DNA of 64,000 nt, taken from an uncultured Mucilaginibacter sp. GTDB lineage: Bacteria > Bacteroidota > Bacteroidia > Sphingobacteriales > Sphingobacteriaceae. Position 1 is the stretch's first letter; every line of letters begins with the position of its first letter. A program made the position numbers and the translations under genes. This document shows positions 4,699 to 14,810 of the stretch, in pieces. The stretch is from positions 1 through 64,000 of the forward strand of contig NZ_CAJYGQ010000009.1 in assembly GCF_913773635.1 (NCBI RefSeq). Reading direction: 5' to 3'. Under the pieces are notes generated by a model that ran no database searches, was not told the origin of the DNA, and saw nothing but the letters and a program-made list of their open reading frames with translations.

Positions 4699-5421
4699 TT
4701 ATTGCTTTCGCATATAAATTTTCCCGTAAGTTGATTTCAAATCATATGCCGGGCCCTTACCCGGCTGGGCAGTAATGGAAGTAAAGAAGTCACGCTTGGT
4801 ATTATCTGTCAAAACCAGGTCGAGGTTTGAATAAATATGTCCGTAACTTGTGGTAGCCTTAATTTGACCTACCTGGGCTTTATTCAATGTTGCGTCAATT
4901 CCGCCGTAAACAGCATCTACAATAACAGGTGTGTTACAATTTACCAGTTGAACCATTCCGTAGGTAGATTTAACAGTGGTTGGTGTATTTACCGGCACTT
5001 TCACTTCTATACTAACATCCATATCAACACCGTTGGAATATGAGCGTATAACGCCCATTTTACTTTTATAAGCTTTAAAGTCGGCCTCAGTTTTAAATAC
5101 AATCTTTTTACCGGCTTCCTGCACTGTATACCTATGCGGCAGTTTATCCAAATCGGTTAGCTTGTTGCTTATTTGTAATACACCGTTATTAATCCGGTCT
5201 GACAAGGTAAATGCGTCGTCGTTTTCGCCATCATTTATGTTTACTTTAGCATTTACTGATACTTCGTTTTTATCCCACGTGGTAATTTTCACTACCGGAT
5301 AATCAAACTTTAACTCCAATGGCTGACCTTTTTTGATTGGATAACTTTTGTTTATTACAGTTTGTGCGCCGACAACGTTGGCCACAACTAAACCCAACCA
5401 CAGCATTAATAAATGTTTCAT
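4699..5421 (-). CDS. Exported DUF4097-like beta-repeat protein, operon copy 2
   Basis: 240-aa exported protein of unknown function. The signal peptide is MKHLLMLWLGLVVANVVGAQ. The rest is rich in short alternating beta strands with recurring motifs of the type STYGMVQL, YGGIDATL, TSYGHIYSN and STYGKIYMRK, the pattern of DUF4097-type putative adhesins that fold as a right-handed beta helix. It is a paralogue of the upstream gene: both end in ST(Y/F)GK(I/V)Y(M/L)RK. It is the last gene of a four-gene minus-strand operon led by an ECF sigma factor, 23 bp from its paralogue and followed by a strong terminator. The role is probably at the envelope, either as effector or as sensed component; that is inference. 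Confidence 0.75.
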   Translation of the reverse strand: MKHLLMLWLGLVVANVVGAQTVINKSYPIKKGQPLELKFDYPVVKITTWDKNEVSVNAKVNINDGENDDAFTLSDRINNGVLQISNKLTDLDKLPHRYTVQEAGKKIVFKTEADFKAYKSKMGVIRSYSNGVDMDVSIEVKVPVNTPTTVKSTYGMVQLVNCNTPVIVDAVYGGIDATLNKAQVGQIKATTSYGHIYSNLDLVLTDNTKRDFFTSITAQPGKGPAYDLKSTYGKIYMRKQ

Positions 5422-5444
5422 GATTTTAAACTTAGGCTTGATAA

Positions 5445-6215
5445 CTAAATTGCTTTACGAAGGTATACTTTGCCAAAGGTTGAGGTTAAGTTAAACTCAG
5501 TACCTCCACCGTTTAGCGTTCCGGCTATATTGCCTGTATATTCTACCATTTCATCATCTTGAGCGCGCTTTTTAAGCTCAATGTTTAAATCAGAAGATGC
5601 AAACACATTACCATGTGTTGTATTGAGTTTTAGGTTAGCTTTTGTAGTACCCGGTACAGCAACATCAACTGTAGCGTACATCGAAGAAATGGTTATTGGA
5701 CCGGCAATTTTGTCTTTAAACTTTGCTTTTACGTTACCATATATACTGTTAACTGTAACCGGGCCAGTAATGTCTTCCAGTTCTACAGAGTTAGTACGTA
5801 CTGATATATCAATCTCTTTATTGATGTTTTTAAAAATAACCTTTCCGGCGTTGATCATGTTCTGCCAATTATAAGATACGCTCACGCCGCGTGGAACTTT
5901 AATTTTAACCTTACCTATGTTTGAGGCTACCTCATTTACTTCTATAGTTGTTCCTTTATCGGCAACGTTAATGCCTATGTTTGTATTATCAACAACACCG
6001 GTGCCACTAAGTAATCTTAAACCGGCCGCGCGCTCATCGGCATACTTCTTATCCTCTGAGGTAAAAATGATTTCCTTGCCATCATAGCCCTCTATGGTAA
6101 CCGATGGCAGTTTGATTAACAATCTTCCTGTTGCTTTGGCAACCTTATATTCCTGAGCAAAAGCATGGCTTATTGCCGTTAATAGAACCATTATAGTTAA
6201 TAACCTGATTTTCAT
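5445..6215 (-). CDS. Exported DUF4097-like beta-repeat protein, operon copy 1
   Basis: 256-aa protein with a clear signal peptide (MKIRLLTIMVLLTAISHAFAQ). The mature part is a beta-strand-rich repeat protein of the DUF4097 type, with segments such as SIYGNVKAKF, SMYATVDVAV, TTHGNVFAS and STFGKVYLRK spaced about 20-40 residues apart. It is paralogous to the next gene downstream, which points to a tandem duplication. No catalytic motif is visible. It sits third in the sigma factor / HEAT protein / DUF4097 / DUF4097 operon, 81 bp after the HEAT gene. Function unknown; location periplasmic or surface by signal peptide. Confidence 0.75.
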   Translation of the reverse strand: MKIRLLTIMVLLTAISHAFAQEYKVAKATGRLLIKLPSVTIEGYDGKEIIFTSEDKKYADERAAGLRLLSGTGVVDNTNIGINVADKGTTIEVNEVASNIGKVKIKVPRGVSVSYNWQNMINAGKVIFKNINKEIDISVRTNSVELEDITGPVTVNSIYGNVKAKFKDKIAGPITISSMYATVDVAVPGTTKANLKLNTTHGNVFASSDLNIELKKRAQDDEMVEYTGNIAGTLNGGGTEFNLTSTFGKVYLRKAI

Positions 6216-6296
6216 TTTAACAAAGTTTTTATAAGTTTATATTTTATAGTGATGGCATAGTCGACGTATACCTTCGATTTCAAAGTGAACAAATGA

Positions 6297-7130
6297 TCAT
6301 GATCCGCGTAGTTGAAAGGCACCGGAGTATGCGGTTTCGCGCACAGCATCCATTTTACTTTCATCCTTTACCATGCCTTCCAGTTCGGTTAATATTGCCG
6401 ATTCTTTCATGCGCGTTAGCAGTTCAATAAGTGCTATCTGAACCATAGGGTCCTGTTGTTTCTTTAGAGACTTTACCAGCTGTTTGCGCACGTAGCTTTC
6501 CTTGTAAAACTTAGCCAATCCATCTAGCGCCGCCATCCTTACATTGGTGTTAGGATCGTTATTCATGGTTTCTACCAAAACGTCAACCACATCGTTACTC
6601 AGGTTTTTAAATTCACCTGTTTGTGAAAGCGCCTTTAAACGGCTGGCAGGCGATGATTGGTCATTCAACTTATCAAACAAAACCTTTTTATATGAACTCT
6701 GCCCTGTTTCGGAAAAGCTTTTAGATAAACGGCTTTTACGTTGGGCTATATCCTGATCAACATCATCAAAACGATGCTGCTGAGGAGCCGGACCGGCTGC
6801 ATATTCTTGCTGCGGCTCAGTAGCGTTTGGCGCAATTGGCTGCTGAATTACCTGCGGTTTAGGCGATGTTTTCACTACGCTTTGCGCCACATTATTTGTT
6901 TGGTTATAAAGCCACAAAACGAAACTTAAACCTATAACCAGGCAAGCGGCAGCAACCCACCTCATGGCAGTGAAGCTTACTACAATGCCCGTTTTCTTTT
7001 CAACCGGTTTAATTTGATGAACCGGTTGCTGCATTTGTTCGAGAATACGGTTTAACACCGCCGGATTTGGCATACGTGTATCCAGTTCTTCGTTATGCTT
7101 GCTTATAAATTCTTCCAGTTTACCTTTCAT
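6297..7130 (-). CDS. Single-TM HEAT-repeat protein, candidate anti-sigma factor
   Basis: 277-aa protein overlapping the sigma-factor gene by 11 bp (the ATG sits in ATGAAAGGTAA, whose TAA stops the sigma gene), so translation is likely coupled. Residues 1-55 are charged and presumably cytoplasmic. One membrane helix (WVAAACLVIGLSFVLWLY) lies around residues 58-76. A Pro/Gln-rich linker follows, and the C-terminal half holds helical HEAT-type repeats (NVRMAALDGLAKFY, PMVQIALIELLTRM). The layout of cytoplasmic head, one TM and periplasmic sensor is that of transmembrane anti-sigma factors, but I do not see a zinc-binding ZAS motif, so that role is inferred from topology and gene position. Confidence 0.7.
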   Translation of the reverse strand: MKGKLEEFISKHNEELDTRMPNPAVLNRILEQMQQPVHQIKPVEKKTGIVVSFTAMRWVAAACLVIGLSFVLWLYNQTNNVAQSVVKTSPKPQVIQQPIAPNATEPQQEYAAGPAPQQHRFDDVDQDIAQRKSRLSKSFSETGQSSYKKVLFDKLNDQSSPASRLKALSQTGEFKNLSNDVVDVLVETMNNDPNTNVRMAALDGLAKFYKESYVRKQLVKSLKKQQDPMVQIALIELLTRMKESAILTELEGMVKDESKMDAVRETAYSGAFQLRGS

Positions 7131-7659
7131 AATGCCCCTCTTTTAACATTTCTAAAACCTTGGCCTTAGCCCTGAAGTACTGAACCCTAACTGTGCTATT
7201 TGACATTCCCAGCATTTGCGCAATTTCAACCTGCGGAATGTTTTCAACCGCGTACAACTGAAATATTGTGCGATAAGCCAAAGGCAGCTCTTCAATTGCC
7301 TGACTTATGCGGTTCATATTATATTCAAACTCCTCCTCATCTACAATTTCATCAACAATCACGGTTGTTTCCGGCTCAAGCTCGGTTAGTTCAAGTCGTT
7401 TTTTTCGCAGCCAGTTTATGGCTTTGTTTATAGCAATCCTTTTAATCCACGGCCTGAAACTATCAGCATTAGTAAGCTTGGCTATAGCATGATAAGCATC
7501 AACAAAAGCTTCCTGCATAATATCCTCTGCTTCGCCGGTGTGTTCTACATACCGGCATATAGCATTGTACACATACTTTGCATTATGCTCATATAACTTT
7601 GTGTAAGCGTACGGATCGCCGTTTTTACACATTGCTACGAGGTCTTGTTGTGATATCAT
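7120..7659 (-). CDS. ECF-family RNA polymerase sigma factor
   Basis: 179-aa alternative sigma factor directing RNA polymerase to a regulon that probably includes its own operon. Region 2 is seen in KYVYNAICRYVEHTGEAEDIMQEAFVDAYHAI, with DSFRPWIKRIAINKAINWLRKKR completing the core-binding and -10 recognition part. Region 4 is a helix-turn-helix in IPQVEIAQMLGMSNSTVRVQYFRAKAKV. Acidic residues link the two. Start ATG 7659 fits the family's usual N-terminus (DLVAMCKNGDPYAYTKLYE). It heads an operon with the HEAT protein and two DUF4097-like genes. It is not a FecI-type gene with a FecR partner, unlike the second sigma factor at 61742. Confidence 0.92.
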   Translation of the reverse strand: MISQQDLVAMCKNGDPYAYTKLYEHNAKYVYNAICRYVEHTGEAEDIMQEAFVDAYHAIAKLTNADSFRPWIKRIAINKAINWLRKKRLELTELEPETTVIVDEIVDEEEFEYNMNRISQAIEELPLAYRTIFQLYAVENIPQVEIAQMLGMSNSTVRVQYFRAKAKVLEMLKEGHYER

Positions 7660-7893: not shown

Positions 7894-10800
7894 TTAATCC
7901 ACCTGGCTTAACGGAATTTCAAACCAAAACACAGAACCTTCATTTTCGTGGCTTTCAACGCCAATCTCTCCACCATGACGGTGAATAATATCTGCCGTAA
8001 TGTATAGACCCAAACCTAAGCCCGAAAACTTTTGAGATGACTCTTGCACACGGAAGAAACGGTCAAATACCTGCTCTTTTTTATCATCAGGTATGCCTAT
8101 CCCAAAATCCTGTACAGATAGGTGAAGCGTGTTTTTATCTGTTATCTTTTGCGTAATTATGATCTCTTTGGCATCTGGGGAATATTTAACTGCGTTTGAT
8201 ACAAAATTGCTTAAGACCTGCTCTAATCTATGCTTGTCAGCTTCAATTTCTACATCGGCGTTGCCTTGCAATACTAGCCGGTGCGTACTAATGTGCGATT
8301 GACTATCGTCAATACATTCCTTGATAACCGCACCCGCGTTGAACCGCGTAAAGTTAAATTGCATTTTACCAGCATGTATCTTTGTAACATCAAGCAAATC
8401 ATCAACAATTGCGGTTAAACGACCTGTTTGTTTATTTGCACGTTCAATAAAAGGATATACTTTTTCATAAGCATCTGCCTCTCTGCCGGCAATACGCTGC
8501 ATTATCTGCAATGATCCTTTTAAACTTGTAATAGGTGTTTTAAGTTCATGACTTGCAATACTCATAAACTCATCCTTTTGCTGCATTAGCTCGCGGGTTG
8601 CATTTTGCGACTTAACAAGCTCAGTAACCTCAAAACCAAAAAAAGCTATACCATCAACCTGCTCGCGCTCGTTATAAATTGGAATAAACAAATAATCAAG
8701 CCAGGCATCAGTAAGTTGCCCTGTTTCAGGATTGATTTTTTTTACGTTGTAAGCTTTTCCCGATTTAGATTCTCCTGTGTGATAAAGTTTTTCATCATTC
8801 GCAAACAAGCGCGAGGTATTCAGCCCGCTATGTGCCTCTTTTGTCGGCAAGCCAATCATATTATCGCGCTGATAGAACGCATCAAAGGCTTTGTTTGTAA
8901 ATTCATAACGCAGCTCGGTCCCACGCCTTATACTGATTAGGGCGGGTGCATTTAAGAAGATACCGTAAAACTCTTCCTGTTGCTTACGTATAAACTCCTG
9001 TAATTCGCGCCTGTTTCGCTCAATTTCCTTTTGGTGGGATAGATCAATAATATAACAAACCGAATTTGCTTCTATATCATCCTCAAGCCTAGCTGCACCC
9101 ATTAATACAGGCACCCTGCTTCCATCACGACGAATGTATTCCTTTTCAAAAGGCGGGCAAAAACCGTTCTTATTTAGCTGCTCTACCGCTTTGCGACTAA
9201 TACCCATATATTCAACAGGCGTTAGCTTATCCCATCCTAATGCACCTTTGTTTAAATCTTCAATGGTGTAGCCCACCATGTTTAAAAATACATCGTTAGC
9301 TTCAATAATCTGACCATCGAACCGGGCAAATAACATCCCGATCATGTCTGATTCAAAAATTTTGCGGAAACGGCTTTCGCTTTTGTTCAAACGTTTTTCA
9401 GCCTCTACAATGCGGGTTATTTCAACAATCGATCCTACCATACGATAAGGCGTATCATAGGCATCATGTAGTATGTTACCCCTATCTAAAATAATAGCGT
9501 AACTGTCATCAGCTTTCTTAAACCTATACTCGGCCGACCAATTGTGCTTGCCTTTGTTTATGGCTTCATGTACGCTCTTTTCAACGCGTTTTCTATCATC
9601 GGGATGCACCTTATCAAACCAATAGCCAATGTTGCTGCTCTCGCTGTTATTTTCATAACCAAACATGGAAGTAAAATTGTCGCTTCTCCACATTTCATTG
9701 GTCACCAGGTTCCAATCCCATATGGTATCATTTGTTGCCTGCGATACTAAATTAAAGCGCTCCTCACTTTGAGTTAAGCTCATGGTGCGCTCTAAAATTT
9801 TATCTTCCAGTTCGGTATTAAGCTTCTTCAAATTTTCGCGGGCACTTACCAGCTCATTATAGTTTTTACGCAGCTTTTGTTCATTTTGCCTACGTTCAGT
9901 AATGTCTGTCAGTGTTACTGCAAAGCCATCAGCAACCTGGCTTGCCATAAGTATGTACCATCCTTTATCTTCATAGTACACCTCTTGTTGCAGCGTCCCT
10001 CCTTTTTGCGTTACCTGCTTCAAGCGCTCAAATACATTGTCCTGCAGCAAAAAATGCAAGTGCTTTTTAAGGAGCTGTCCTTTTAATTCGGTATCTGTTT
10101 TACTTAATAGCTGGGCAGCCATACGGTTGGCCATCAAGCATTTAAAATCGGACAGTTGCCCATTATTGTTACGAACGGCCCCAAATACCATTATAGCGCT
10201 TAAACTTGTGCTAAATACGCCCGAAACGATGCTGTTAAGTTCGGTAATAGTGCTTATGTCAACAAAGCTGATTACTACGCCATCACGTTCCTTGTCTTTT
10301 TTGATATAAGGTAGCACTCTGAGCAAGCAATGCTTTCCGTCTTTCAATTCAACTTCTTTTTCAACCAAATGTGCCGGGTTGTTAAGCACTTCCTGAATAT
10401 CGGCTAAAAAGTTTTCGTACTTTATATTGTTAGATATATGTTTGATAGGCCGGCCAATATCTGCCTCTATCAAGTTAACCATCATCACAGCAGCCGGATT
10501 AAATTTGCGGATTCGCATATCCTGATCCACAAATATCTGCCCTATATCAACGCTTTTAAAGTAGTTGTTCAAATCATCATTAAGATCAATCAATTCTTTG
10601 ATCTTAAGCTGATGCTCTGTATTTAACGTGTGTAATTCCTCATTGAGTGATTGCAGCTCTTCGTTACTTGATTGCAATTCTTCATTGGCCGAAAGCAACT
10701 CCTCATTACTTGATTGCAGCTCCTCGTTGGTGGTTTCCATCTCCTCCACGGCCATTTGCAGGTTACCACGCACCTCACTGAGTTCGTTCTCTAACTCGTT

Positions 10801-12741
10801 AACGTAAACCGCCTGCTGCTCATCAGAATTATGCGGAACAATAATATCATCGCTGTTGAGGCCAAACTCCAGCTCAACCTCATTAAAGACTACCAATACA
10901 TATGGAACAGTCGACTGTGTATCTGCCGGTTTTACATTTATGTTTACATAAACATCGTTATTACGGCGCTTTATGCGTATGCGCTTTAACCTTGTAGGCA
11001 GCTCCTCCTTCACAGCCTTACGCAAGGCTGTGTTAATGATAAAAGAAAGCTCGCTAGGCACCATTTTTAAGATATTGAGCTCCAGCTTTTTATCGGGCAA
11101 GGATAAGTATTTTTTAAAATCGCCTACGGTCTCCTTTATTTCACCGTTTTTATCAACGTACACGCCTACATAACCTAAATCATCAGTAAGAAATTCTTTG
11201 AAGCTATCCCTCGATACTTTTTCGGCTTTGATAAAGGGCTTGCGCAAATCGCTTGAAAAGTTGTGGCTATAGTAGCTGTTGTTATTTGACGGTTGCTGGC
11301 TGATAGGACCTATTTTGCGATAAAGCTTCCACTTACCGCTAACCTCATGTAACCCTTCCTTAATTGATGATACTGTTTCGCTGGAACCAAGGAACAAAAA
11401 TCCGCCCTGGTTAAGTGAAAAGTGGAATGTAGATAACACCTTTTGCTGCAACAAAACATTCATATAAATGAGCATGTTGCGGCATGCAATCAAGTCGTTT
11501 TTTATAAAAGGCGGAGCCTTTACAACATTATGCCTGGCAAAAACAATTTGCTTGCGAATTGACGGGATAACGGAGTAATATTTACCGTCTTTTACAAAAT
11601 AACGCTGCAAAATATCAGCATCAATGTCTTTCTCAATAGTTTCCGGATAACTATTGTGCGATGCTACATCTAAACTTGCTTCGTCAATATCGGTGGCAAA
11701 GATTTTTACATCTAGATCTTTGTTTACCTTTTTAAGATACTTATCTATTAATATAGCTATGGAGTACGCTTCCTCACCCGTGCTGCAGGCACACACCCAT
11801 ACTTTCAAAATTTCCTCGTGCGCCTTTTCGTCAACTATCTGTGGAATGACGTGGTTTTCCAGTTGTTCAAAAGCGGCTCTATCTCTGAAAAAACGCGTAA
11901 CTCCAATTAAAAAGTCTTTGCCTAGTAATTTAACTTCTTCTTCATTTTGTCGCAAAAACTCAATGTAGCTTTCAAGGTTGCTAATTTTATTATGCTCCAT
12001 GCGGCGCGTAATACGCCTTATAATGGTTGGTGTTTTATATAAATTAAAATCATGACCGCTTTGGTGGTGCACCAACTGAAAAAGCTCATTTAATAGGCCT
12101 TCATTGTCATACCCGCCTTCAAAAATTTTCACAGGTTGCTGGCGCATGTATCCAAACAACTCGTCGGGCATTTGCGACGGTGGTTGAACGCTATCGGCAT
12201 TACCTGATGTAATAGCACTTTTAGGCATGCCATCAAACTTTGCTGTTTCGGGCTCCTGTACCAGCACCATGCCACCATTCTCTTTTATAGCTTCAATACC
12301 GCGCGTGCCATCGGTGCCGGTTCCTGATAAAATAATGGCTACTGCTTTTTCCTTTTTATCGCTCGCAAGACTGAATAAAAAGGTATCGATGGCTGTATTC
12401 GGTGATTTATCCTGCTGTTTATCGGCCAATTTTAAACGGTTGTGGCTTACCGTCATTAATTTATTATTTGGTATGATATAAACACAATTAGGGTGAAGGC
12501 TCATATTTTCTTCGGCCTCAAACACCTTCATGTGCGTATGCTTTGATACTAACTCAACCAACAAGCTTTTATAATCGGGCGAGAGATGCTGTATTACAAT
12601 AAAAGAGAAATTGGAGTTGCCGGGCATATGGTCAAAAAACTCATGAATGGCCTCCAGGCCACCTGCCGATGCACCTATTGCAACAACATAATTATCGGCT
12701 ATGCCCATATTTCTCTTAATCTCGGGTGCTTTACTACTCAT
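7894..12741 (-). CDS. CheB-CheR-multi-PAS hybrid histidine kinase
   Basis: A 1615-aa cytoplasmic signalling protein. Residues about 17-200 are a CheB methylesterase domain with the catalytic triad Ser25 (GASAGG), His52 (QHLSPD) and Asp144 (GTGTDG) but no N-terminal receiver. Residues about 210-485 are a CheR methyltransferase with the SAM motif CACSTGEEAYS and the NxxxY-type RNMLIYM. Residues about 650-740 form a long coiled coil of repeated SSNEEL/SANEEL units. Then come about five PAS domains, including ATNDTIWDWN (PAS_3 type) and IFESDMIGMLFARFDG. HisKA has the phospho-acceptor His in FMSIASHELKTPITSL, and HATPase has N box NFVSNAVKYS and G boxes DFGIGIP and GLGLGLY. No receiver domain, no membrane helix. 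It lies 15 bp after the phytochrome gene and probably forms an operon with it. Domain calls are firm; partners are inferred. Confidence 0.93.
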   Translation of the reverse strand: MSSKAPEIKRNMGIADNYVVAIGASAGGLEAIHEFFDHMPGNSNFSFIVIQHLSPDYKSLLVELVSKHTHMKVFEAEENMSLHPNCVYIIPNNKLMTVSHNRLKLADKQQDKSPNTAIDTFLFSLASDKKEKAVAIILSGTGTDGTRGIEAIKENGGMVLVQEPETAKFDGMPKSAITSGNADSVQPPSQMPDELFGYMRQQPVKIFEGGYDNEGLLNELFQLVHHQSGHDFNLYKTPTIIRRITRRMEHNKISNLESYIEFLRQNEEEVKLLGKDFLIGVTRFFRDRAAFEQLENHVIPQIVDEKAHEEILKVWVCACSTGEEAYSIAILIDKYLKKVNKDLDVKIFATDIDEASLDVASHNSYPETIEKDIDADILQRYFVKDGKYYSVIPSIRKQIVFARHNVVKAPPFIKNDLIACRNMLIYMNVLLQQKVLSTFHFSLNQGGFLFLGSSETVSSIKEGLHEVSGKWKLYRKIGPISQQPSNNNSYYSHNFSSDLRKPFIKAEKVSRDSFKEFLTDDLGYVGVYVDKNGEIKETVGDFKKYLSLPDKKLELNILKMVPSELSFIINTALRKAVKEELPTRLKRIRIKRRNNDVYVNINVKPADTQSTVPYVLVVFNEVELEFGLNSDDIIVPHNSDEQQAVYVNELENELSEVRGNLQMAVEEMETTNEELQSSNEELLSANEELQSSNEELQSLNEELHTLNTEHQLKIKELIDLNDDLNNYFKSVDIGQIFVDQDMRIRKFNPAAVMMVNLIEADIGRPIKHISNNIKYENFLADIQEVLNNPAHLVEKEVELKDGKHCLLRVLPYIKKDKERDGVVISFVDISTITELNSIVSGVFSTSLSAIMVFGAVRNNNGQLSDFKCLMANRMAAQLLSKTDTELKGQLLKKHLHFLLQDNVFERLKQVTQKGGTLQQEVYYEDKGWYILMASQVADGFAVTLTDITERRQNEQKLRKNYNELVSARENLKKLNTELEDKILERTMSLTQSEERFNLVSQATNDTIWDWNLVTNEMWRSDNFTSMFGYENNSESSNIGYWFDKVHPDDRKRVEKSVHEAINKGKHNWSAEYRFKKADDSYAIILDRGNILHDAYDTPYRMVGSIVEITRIVEAEKRLNKSESRFRKIFESDMIGMLFARFDGQIIEANDVFLNMVGYTIEDLNKGALGWDKLTPVEYMGISRKAVEQLNKNGFCPPFEKEYIRRDGSRVPVLMGAARLEDDIEANSVCYIIDLSHQKEIERNRRELQEFIRKQQEEFYGIFLNAPALISIRRGTELRYEFTNKAFDAFYQRDNMIGLPTKEAHSGLNTSRLFANDEKLYHTGESKSGKAYNVKKINPETGQLTDAWLDYLFIPIYNEREQVDGIAFFGFEVTELVKSQNATRELMQQKDEFMSIASHELKTPITSLKGSLQIMQRIAGREADAYEKVYPFIERANKQTGRLTAIVDDLLDVTKIHAGKMQFNFTRFNAGAVIKECIDDSQSHISTHRLVLQGNADVEIEADKHRLEQVLSNFVSNAVKYSPDAKEIIITQKITDKNTLHLSVQDFGIGIPDDKKEQVFDRFFRVQESSQKFSGLGLGLYITADIIHRHGGEIGVESHENEGSVFWFEIPLSQVD

Positions 12742-12756
12742 TTAGCCTCTAAAAAA

Positions 12757-14262
12757 TTAAATAGCTTGTTTGGTTTTAAATTCGTAAACAAAACTGCGCA
12801 ATGTATCGGCTACCCCTAACTCATCCTTATGCCATGGCAATGACGTATTTTTAACGGTTTGGAGCCAGCTTTTGAATGAATTACGCGGATGATAGGTTTT
12901 ACCATCAGCAGCAAAATTTATAGTTTGGTTTGGATCTCCGCCCCAAGTAATGGTTTGGACAACCTCTGGCCTGAAACAAACAATGTAATTGCCGTTATGG
13001 CTATCCAAAGGTATAATCAGGGCACCGCTTGCAATTGGAGCTTCGCTGGCCGCTTCGTCAAAAATATCAGGCAGCGTGGTTGTTGAAAAAACTTTACCTA
13101 TTTCTTTAGCATGCAGCCACAGGTGCAAGTTTTCGAGCATGTCGTTATGCGGCACCTCGCCCGCAGTTGTTATTTTACTGTTATTGAATATAACGGCGCC
13201 CTTTGAGTTAAAGAGCTTTAATATATTTTCGTCGTGCTCAAGCAAACCTTGTTCAATGTTACGATCGCTGTAGATGTGATCAATAATGCTGTTGCGTTGT
13301 GATTGCAAATCGGCAACCCGGCCATATTCTTCTTTATTAATAATAGACGATATTTTGTTTGATACCACGCTTGATAACAACTCAAATATCGAACATAACT
13401 CAAAGCTTAGATAGTATGGCTTGGTATGGTGGCAGGCTATTAAGCCCCATAATTGCTCATTATGAATAACCCTTACCGACATTGAAGCCGTTACCCCCAT
13501 ATTTCCTAAATACTCAATATGCACGGCGGCAACACTACGCAGGTTACAGTCAGATAAATCAGTAAATGAGTTAGTGAGCGAGTTAAGTACCGGATAAAGC
13601 CTTACCGGCGTATATTCGCGATTGGGAATAAGACGGTACGGGTTTCTGAGGTAAAGCTCACGCGCTTGTCGCGGCACATCAGATGCCGGAAACGTAACGC
13701 CCAGGTAAGGTTCAAGAGCATCCGATTTATCTTCGGCAATAACGGTTCCGTTCCAGTTTTCATCAAAACGGTACATCATTATACCATCAAAACCTGATAT
13801 ACGTTTAAGCTCCCTGATAGCAATTTCGCATGCATCCTGCACCGAAGTAGCTACATCTACAGCAGCCATTACATATTTAATTTCCTGAAAAACGTTTATA
13901 AACGTACGCTCATCCTCAGCCTGCACTCGTTCAAGCTCCAACAAAAAATACTCTTGCCTGGCATGCACCAACGCAAGCAACTCAATGTTGTTAAGCGTTA
14001 AGCTAACAGGTATTTTATCTTTAATTCCGGTTTCAATTTTTGCCTTCAGTTCTTCTATTTGCTTCTGCGGAACGTAATCTGAAAAGTTGGACGAGATAAT
14101 CTCCACCGCACTAATTCCCAATACATCGCTTAAGTTCTCACTGATCTGAATAATATTTAAAGATTCTTTTTCTAACACAACCAAATAGCCATGGGGCTGG
14201 ATCATGTTAACGTTATGCAAAGGCAAATTGCCGCAAAATTCTGAATCGTAGTTAGATGCCAT
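12757..14262 (-). CDS. Bacteriophytochrome photosensory core (PAS-GAF-PHY) without output domain
   Basis: A 501-aa red/far-red photoreceptor core. ATG 14262 (MASNYDSEFC) is preferred over the track start at 14289. Residues about 10-115 are the PAS_2 domain with the biliverdin-attachment Cys10 followed by MIQPHG. The GAF domain (about 135-320) keeps Tyr164 (MMYRFD), PASDVP with Asp195, Arg242, His248 and Tyr251 (VHIEYLGNMGV) and His278/279 (IACHHTKPY). These match the chromophore-pocket residues of Deinococcus BphP. The PHY domain has tongue motifs WGGDPNQ and HPRNSFKSW. The protein ends soon after, so it carries no kinase or other output. The next gene, 15 bp on, is the CheB/CheR/PAS kinase and the probable partner. 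No haem oxygenase gene is in the window, so biliverdin must come from elsewhere. Confidence 0.93.
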   Translation of the reverse strand: MASNYDSEFCGNLPLHNVNMIQPHGYLVVLEKESLNIIQISENLSDVLGISAVEIISSNFSDYVPQKQIEELKAKIETGIKDKIPVSLTLNNIELLALVHARQEYFLLELERVQAEDERTFINVFQEIKYVMAAVDVATSVQDACEIAIRELKRISGFDGIMMYRFDENWNGTVIAEDKSDALEPYLGVTFPASDVPRQARELYLRNPYRLIPNREYTPVRLYPVLNSLTNSFTDLSDCNLRSVAAVHIEYLGNMGVTASMSVRVIHNEQLWGLIACHHTKPYYLSFELCSIFELLSSVVSNKISSIINKEEYGRVADLQSQRNSIIDHIYSDRNIEQGLLEHDENILKLFNSKGAVIFNNSKITTAGEVPHNDMLENLHLWLHAKEIGKVFSTTTLPDIFDEAASEAPIASGALIIPLDSHNGNYIVCFRPEVVQTITWGGDPNQTINFAADGKTYHPRNSFKSWLQTVKNTSLPWHKDELGVADTLRSFVYEFKTKQAI

Positions 14263-14712: not shown

Positions 14713-14786
14713 CGGGATGTAGCGTAGCCCGGTATCGCGCCACATTTGGGATGTGGAGGCCGCAGGTTCGAATCCTGCCATCCCGA
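14713..14786 (+). tRNA. tRNA-Pro (anticodon UGG)
   Basis: Cloverleaf parts are all readable. Acceptor arms are CGGGATG / CATCCCG with discriminator A. The D stem is GCG/CGC. The anticodon stem CCACA/TGTGG closes loop TTTGGGA with anticodon TGG at 14747-14749. The T arm is GCAGG-TTCGAAT-CCTGC. A first base C is characteristic of tRNA-Pro. The 3' CCA is not encoded. The reverse-strand ORF reading GMAGFEPAAS is the usual antisense artefact of a tRNA. Confidence 0.96.
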
Positions 14787-14810
14787 CAACAAGCGATACC
14801 ACAAAGTATT

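Follow-up and report, generated by a model that had tools for sequence, protein, structure and literature searches.

An output-less bacteriophytochrome encoded beside a CheB-CheR-PAS histidine kinase in Mucilaginibacter: a probable split light-signalling system

In canonical bacteriophytochromes the histidine kinase lies on the same chain as the photosensor, and phytochrome signalling has mostly been studied in this single-chain form, in which the light signal reaches the kinase along an unbroken helical spine. The locus described here raises the question of how a phytochrome that ends at its photosensory core might signal, and to which partner. It was found in the window, the 64,000-nucleotide stretch of DNA that was analysed, which lies on contig C9 of a 4.05-Mb Mucilaginibacter genome.

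The phytochrome and kinase genes

The features of the locus, all on the minus strand, are as follows.

12757..14262 (-), output-less bacteriophytochrome, PAS-GAF-PHY, 501 aa (Pfam PAS_2/GAF/PHY)
12742..12756 (-), 15-bp gap between the phytochrome stop and the kinase start
7894..12741 (-), CheB-CheR-PAS-coil-PAS-HisKA-HATPase kinase, 1615 aa (Pfam; catalytic residues kept in 95 relatives)
12157..12684 (-), CheB methylesterase domain, kinase residues 20-195 (Pfam; matches to PDB entries 3sft and 1chd)
11329..11901 (-), CheR SAM-binding methyltransferase domain, kinase residues 281-471 (Pfam; matches to PDB entries 5ftw and 1bc5)
10552..10821 (-), 90-residue helix, kinase residues 641-730, proposed methylation target (single helix in AlphaFold2)
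7894..8580 (-), HisKA and HATPase_c kinase core, kinase residues about 1388-1612, with His1398 (Pfam)

The phytochrome reading frame runs from an ATG at 14262 to a stop at 12757. Its Pfam matches (PAS_2, residues 12-111; GAF, 141-302; PHY, 320-495, E = 6e-44) leave only six residues after PHY, and Pfam finds no histidine kinase domain in the 501 residues. The bilin-attachment residue Cys10 and the motifs PASDVP, VHIEYL, ACHH, WGGDP and HPRNSF are all present. The PAS-GAF-PHY order, the N-terminal bilin cysteine and the tongue are those of a bacteriophytochrome photosensory core; the sequence-only reading, which had described a complete core ending right after PHY, was exact in its coordinates and agrees with both Pfam and the motifs. 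Against NF041576, the NCBIfam model for BphP phytochrome histidine kinases, the protein scores 289 bits, below the cut-off of 1040. AlphaFold2 models the chain as a phytochrome core (pLDDT 88), the best PDB match of which is Cph1 (PDB entry 2vea; TM 0.89), with 34% identity to Cph1. The modelled C-terminus is a 22-residue helix (residues 479-500) just after PHY; in canonical phytochromes the helix at this position runs on into the kinase. The nearest named relative is a protein of Mucilaginibacter aquatilis HME9299 (98%). A tRNA-Pro gene (tgg) is located upstream of the phytochrome gene on the opposite strand (14713-14787, +).

The 15-bp spacing is consistent with a single transcript for both genes. 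In the kinase, Pfam identifies CheB_methylest, CheR_N, CheR, PAS_10, PAS_3, PAS_9, HisKA and HATPase_c, and no photosensor domain in the 1615 residues. The earlier description of a photosensor-free protein 15 bp downstream, with CheB, CheR, coiled-coil, PAS, HisKA and HATPase parts, is thereby borne out exactly by Pfam and the coordinates, the coil appearing as a helix in AlphaFold2. The model of residues 1-740 comprises CheB, CheR, a PAS-like region and one long helix; the PAS-like strand and helix order falls at residues about 520-622, where Pfam gives no match. The CheB triad consists of Ser25, His52 and Asp144, and the HisKA histidine, N box and G boxes of a two-component histidine kinase are present. 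The region 3' of the kinase on the same strand (4699-7659, -) encodes an RNA polymerase sigma-factor-like protein (179 aa), a protein of 277 aa and two others, of 256 and 240 aa, whose starts resemble signal peptides.

Conservation of the pair

We surveyed 301 genomes of the family using an alignment of output-less phytochromes and kinase residues 14-839 as queries. The phytochrome search returned 58 matches at 678-844 bits, followed at 382 bits by the first full-length phytochromes, and the kinase search returned 60 matches of at least 912 bits, followed by one at 694 bits. Each of the 58 output-less phytochromes has a kinase of this class directly downstream on the same strand, and 58 of the 60 kinases have an adjoining output-less phytochrome; by genome, 57 contain both, two the kinase only, none the phytochrome only and 242 neither. 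Adjacency in 58 of 58 cases indicates that the pairing is not due to chance. Conserved adjacency had been set beforehand as a test of the sequence-only reading, and it extends from the family to the named loci of Sphingobacteriales, Chitinophagales and Cytophagales (80 of 80) and to the short phytochromes of a 396-genome sample of the phylum (three of three). The two genes are closely spaced, with a median gap of 8 bp over 95 non-redundant pairs, 25 of which overlap. As a control, none of 20 full-length phytochromes of the family has a CheB or CheR neighbour; among the wider loci fetched, L184 is the only one in which a full-length phytochrome does. The carriers of the pair include many soil and water Bacteroidota. 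A survey of plasmids for the pair outside Bacteroidota yielded phytochrome matches at most about 33% identical, and no fusion of phytochrome, CheB and CheR in one protein was seen.

Both kinases without a phytochrome neighbour (L162 and L163) retain the regulator described below. At L162, phytochrome residues 3-22 remain just 5' of the kinase (L162:3792-3851; E 1e-6). At L163, residues 1-112 of a heme oxygenase remain (L163:5572-5935), together with a possible 15-residue phytochrome tail, which is a weak match. These scars suggest that the phytochrome was deleted at both loci. Since two genomes keep the kinase and regulator without it, the kinase does not need the phytochrome and probably has other inputs. 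In two metagenome-derived genomes the kinase is present as two reading frames broken between CheR and the coil (L134:2901-6419 and L144:8657-12784), which could be either a true split or a sequence error.

When 50 output-less phytochromes were placed in a tree with 45 full-length ones, they grouped as one clade with support 100. The tree comes from a quick search and includes long-branch rows; the unity of the clade is supported, and its placing among the full-length forms is unsure. One genome has two phytochrome kinases of 743 and 784 aa in tandem (L191:3650-8809, +), and the one of them included in the tree sits on a very long branch.

Over 95 pairs picked by homology, the bilin cysteine, the PASD aspartate, the His260-type residue and the tongue residues are invariant, at identities down to about 43%, and the His290-type residue is histidine in 88 and asparagine in seven. 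The CheB Ser/His/Asp triad is kept in all 95. The CheR SAM-site motif is conserved, with E323 replaced by glutamine in 23 of 95; glutamine also occupies this position in P. aeruginosa CheR1 (PDB entry 5y4r). The HisKA histidine, N box and G1 aspartate are kept in 92 of 92.

Heme oxygenase, response regulators and kinase types

Clustering of the neighbours shows a heme oxygenase gene directly 5' of the pair on the same strand in 33 of 95 loci, a single-domain response regulator directly 3' in 22 of 95, and both flanking the pair in 20 of 95. The window genome itself encodes a heme oxygenase (L221:4837-5415) beside a regulator of type RA (L221:4371-4751), both on contig C7, so that bphO, which was to be sought elsewhere in the genome, has been found there. 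A doublet of heme oxygenase and RA lying apart from the pair was seen in five of 12 further pair carriers examined, and one of eight genomes without the pair also has the doublet. RA is encoded in 239 of 301 genomes, also in ones without the pair, and was rejected as a regulator dedicated to the pair because it is too widespread.

The kinase ends fall into two types. Type A, found at 72 loci, is at least 47% identical to the kinase end of the window protein, while type B (20 of 92 loci, from Chitinophagales and Cytophagales) is 23-30% identical to it; the N-terminal halves (CheB-CheR-coil-PAS) at type B loci are still 44-56% identical. Where a regulator gene follows that of the kinase, type A kinases are accompanied by RA (14:0) and type B kinases by RB (8:0), a contrast between lineages for which the Fisher p value of 3e-6 overstates the independence of the loci. 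Such matching of kinase and regulator types is expected of phosphotransfer partners, and it may reflect one event. As the kinase domain type varies by lineage together with the regulator, the CheB-CheR-coil-PAS half appears to be the constant partner of the phytochrome. Distances between the phytochromes also track those of this half (Mantel 0.876) more closely than those of the HK end (0.637, a value lowered in part by the change of kinase type), which makes the constant half the best candidate for the interface with the phytochrome.

A distant member of the class (L184:4453-11499, -) encodes a CheB-CheR-PAS-HK protein, a full-length phytochrome, a regulator and a heme oxygenase in a single run on one strand, the same partners in another architecture. 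The window genome also carries a second phytochrome, a full-length kinase of 747 aa on contig C6 (L032:5771-8014, -), with a 141-aa regulator directly 3' of it and with no CheB or CheR nearby.

Proposed mechanism and relation to known systems

In our view the two genes encode a split phytochrome two-component system in which light acts in trans on the kinase, a reading to which we assign a probability of about 0.6. That the phytochrome and kinase form a functional unit is well supported, and the split light-signalling system put forward in the sequence-only reading is likewise well supported now that the adjacency test has been passed and bphO found. In this system heme oxygenase would supply biliverdin, which the output-less protein would bind in order to toggle between red- and far-red-absorbing states. 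The phytochrome would then influence the adjoining kinase through its CheB-CheR-coil-PAS half, most likely by touching it, and the HisKA/HATPase end of the kinase would hand phosphate to the separate single-domain regulator. Within the kinase, CheR would most likely methylate, and CheB demethylate, Glu-Glu pairs of the protein's own coil, and the kinase gain would be set by the methylation state of the coil, just as chemotaxis systems adjust their gain by methylating MCPs. That the phytochrome touches the kinase, that light governs phosphorylation and that the kinase methylates itself are predictions from sequence.

The prediction of self-methylation concerns the substrate of CheB and CheR. 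The remark that no MCP is coded near the pair holds and can be extended to the whole genome (95% complete), in which neither MCPsignal (PF00015) nor CheW (PF01584) domains were detected; the same profiles gave matches in seven of 14 control genomes. By these markers the genome lacks an MCP-based chemotaxis adaptation system, and CheB and CheR have the catalytic residues of one. MCP methylation sites are Glu/Gln pairs about seven residues apart. Kinase residues 670-711, within the helix 641-730, consist of NEELQSS heptads with a Glu-Glu pair every seven residues, and their conservation is the highest of any 42-residue window in residues 1-900 (mean entropy 0.13; next 0.55). The pattern EExx[AST][AST] occurs three to four times per coil in 93 of 95 kinases, and 92 of 95 depart from the strict decapeptide consensus of MCPs. 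Conservation of the exposed Glu, Gln, Ser and Asn residues would not be explained by heptad packing alone. With no MCP or CheW found in the genome, and by analogy with MCP sites, the kinase's own coil seems the likeliest substrate. CheB-CheR-PAS proteins without a phytochrome partner share the repeat, which is thus not specific to light; if self-methylation does take place, it would be a general property of such proteins. We tentatively suggest, as a possibility that we hold with less than even confidence, a chemotaxis-like adaptation to light level without chemoreceptors, in which the kinase methylates its own coil through the built-in CheR and CheB and the phytochrome tunes this cycle in trans.

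Several of these observations could also be read in another way. The phytochrome may act on the methylation half only, so that light controls CheR or CheB (or the phytochrome is their substrate) and the kinase responds only at second hand, via its methylation state. This account draws on the fact that CheB-CheR-coil-PAS10, and not the HK domain, is the constant partner in all loci, on the better Mantel correlation of that half (0.876 against 0.637) and on the lack of an MCP in the genome as an alternative substrate. However, the coil and first PAS domain belong to the same constant half, which makes a mechanical effect on the kinase inseparable from it by sequence, and the change of HK type would by itself lower the correlation of the HK end; we regard this account as unlikely, if worth keeping in mind.

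Less probable still is that the genes are merely co-transcribed for growth in the light and that the phytochrome signals to some other protein without ever touching the kinase. The retention of the kinase in two genomes that have lost the phytochrome would fit this, but it accords poorly with an exclusive one-to-one pairing over three orders in which no such phytochrome was found alone, and with a phytochrome that has no output domain of its own. The missing output domain might finally mark the phytochrome as a degenerate relic without a function in light. The invariance of the bilin cysteine and of the PASD, His260-type and tongue residues in 95 pairs, the long-lived single clade formed by the output-less proteins and the heme oxygenase retained directly upstream in a third of the loci make that very hard to accept.

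The split two-component system that we favour shares with phytochrome kinases of the BphP/Cph1 type (PGP-HK) the photosensory core, bilin residues and tongue and, in many loci, the heme oxygenase and regulator neighbours, but here the sensor and kinase are separate and the kinase adds CheB, CheR, a coil and several PAS domains. Short LOV proteins are photosensors that lack an effector domain and are presumed to act in trans on another protein (PMC6798134); in both respects they resemble the present phytochrome, but they are flavin/LOV rather than bilin/phytochrome sensors, and here there is a fixed, identifiable partner gene. In Bacillus cereus, RsbM methylates the signalling helix of the kinase RsbK (PMC4574943). 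The combination of a CheR-type enzyme with the signalling helix of a histidine kinase is common to both systems, being predicted here from the sequence pattern; in the Bacillus stress pathway the methyltransferase and kinase are separate, whereas here one protein combines CheR, CheB and the coil and has a phytochrome as its neighbour. Intact CheR and CheB active sites and Glu-Glu pairs every seven residues in a long helix recall MCP adaptation in chemotaxis, but the genome has no MCP or CheW, and the enzymes would here act on the kinase that carries them. CheB-CheR-PAS proteins of other bacteria, among them ones encoded on plasmids of Azospirillum, Deinococcus and Dyadobacter, have the same CheB-CheR-coil-PAS layout and, in most of those checked, NEELQSS-like heptads, but they are about 35-40% identical, and at the four plasmid loci read there is no annotated phytochrome neighbour. 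Our literature search, which left most subscription journals outside its reach, found no account of a pair of this kind.

With the helical spine cut between a separate photosensor and a fixed partner, the pair offers a direct test of phytochrome control in trans. The combination of another kinase type with a matching regulator type in some lineages suggests that the sensor-plus-CheB-CheR unit is modular, which would be of interest for red-light tools. The targets of CheB-CheR-PAS proteins in bacteria without chemoreceptors have been a standing puzzle, and for this too the pair supplies an answer that can be tested. A second MCP-less chemotaxis-like operon is present on contig C10 of the same genome (L220:2813-9651, +) and encodes a hybrid kinase (1146 aa), a stand-alone CheR (279 aa), a CheB (195 aa) and a hybrid kinase/regulator (655 aa). 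A third CheB of 196 aa is encoded on contig C9 outside the window (92670-93197, -), whereas the other CheR of the genome lies on a different contig.
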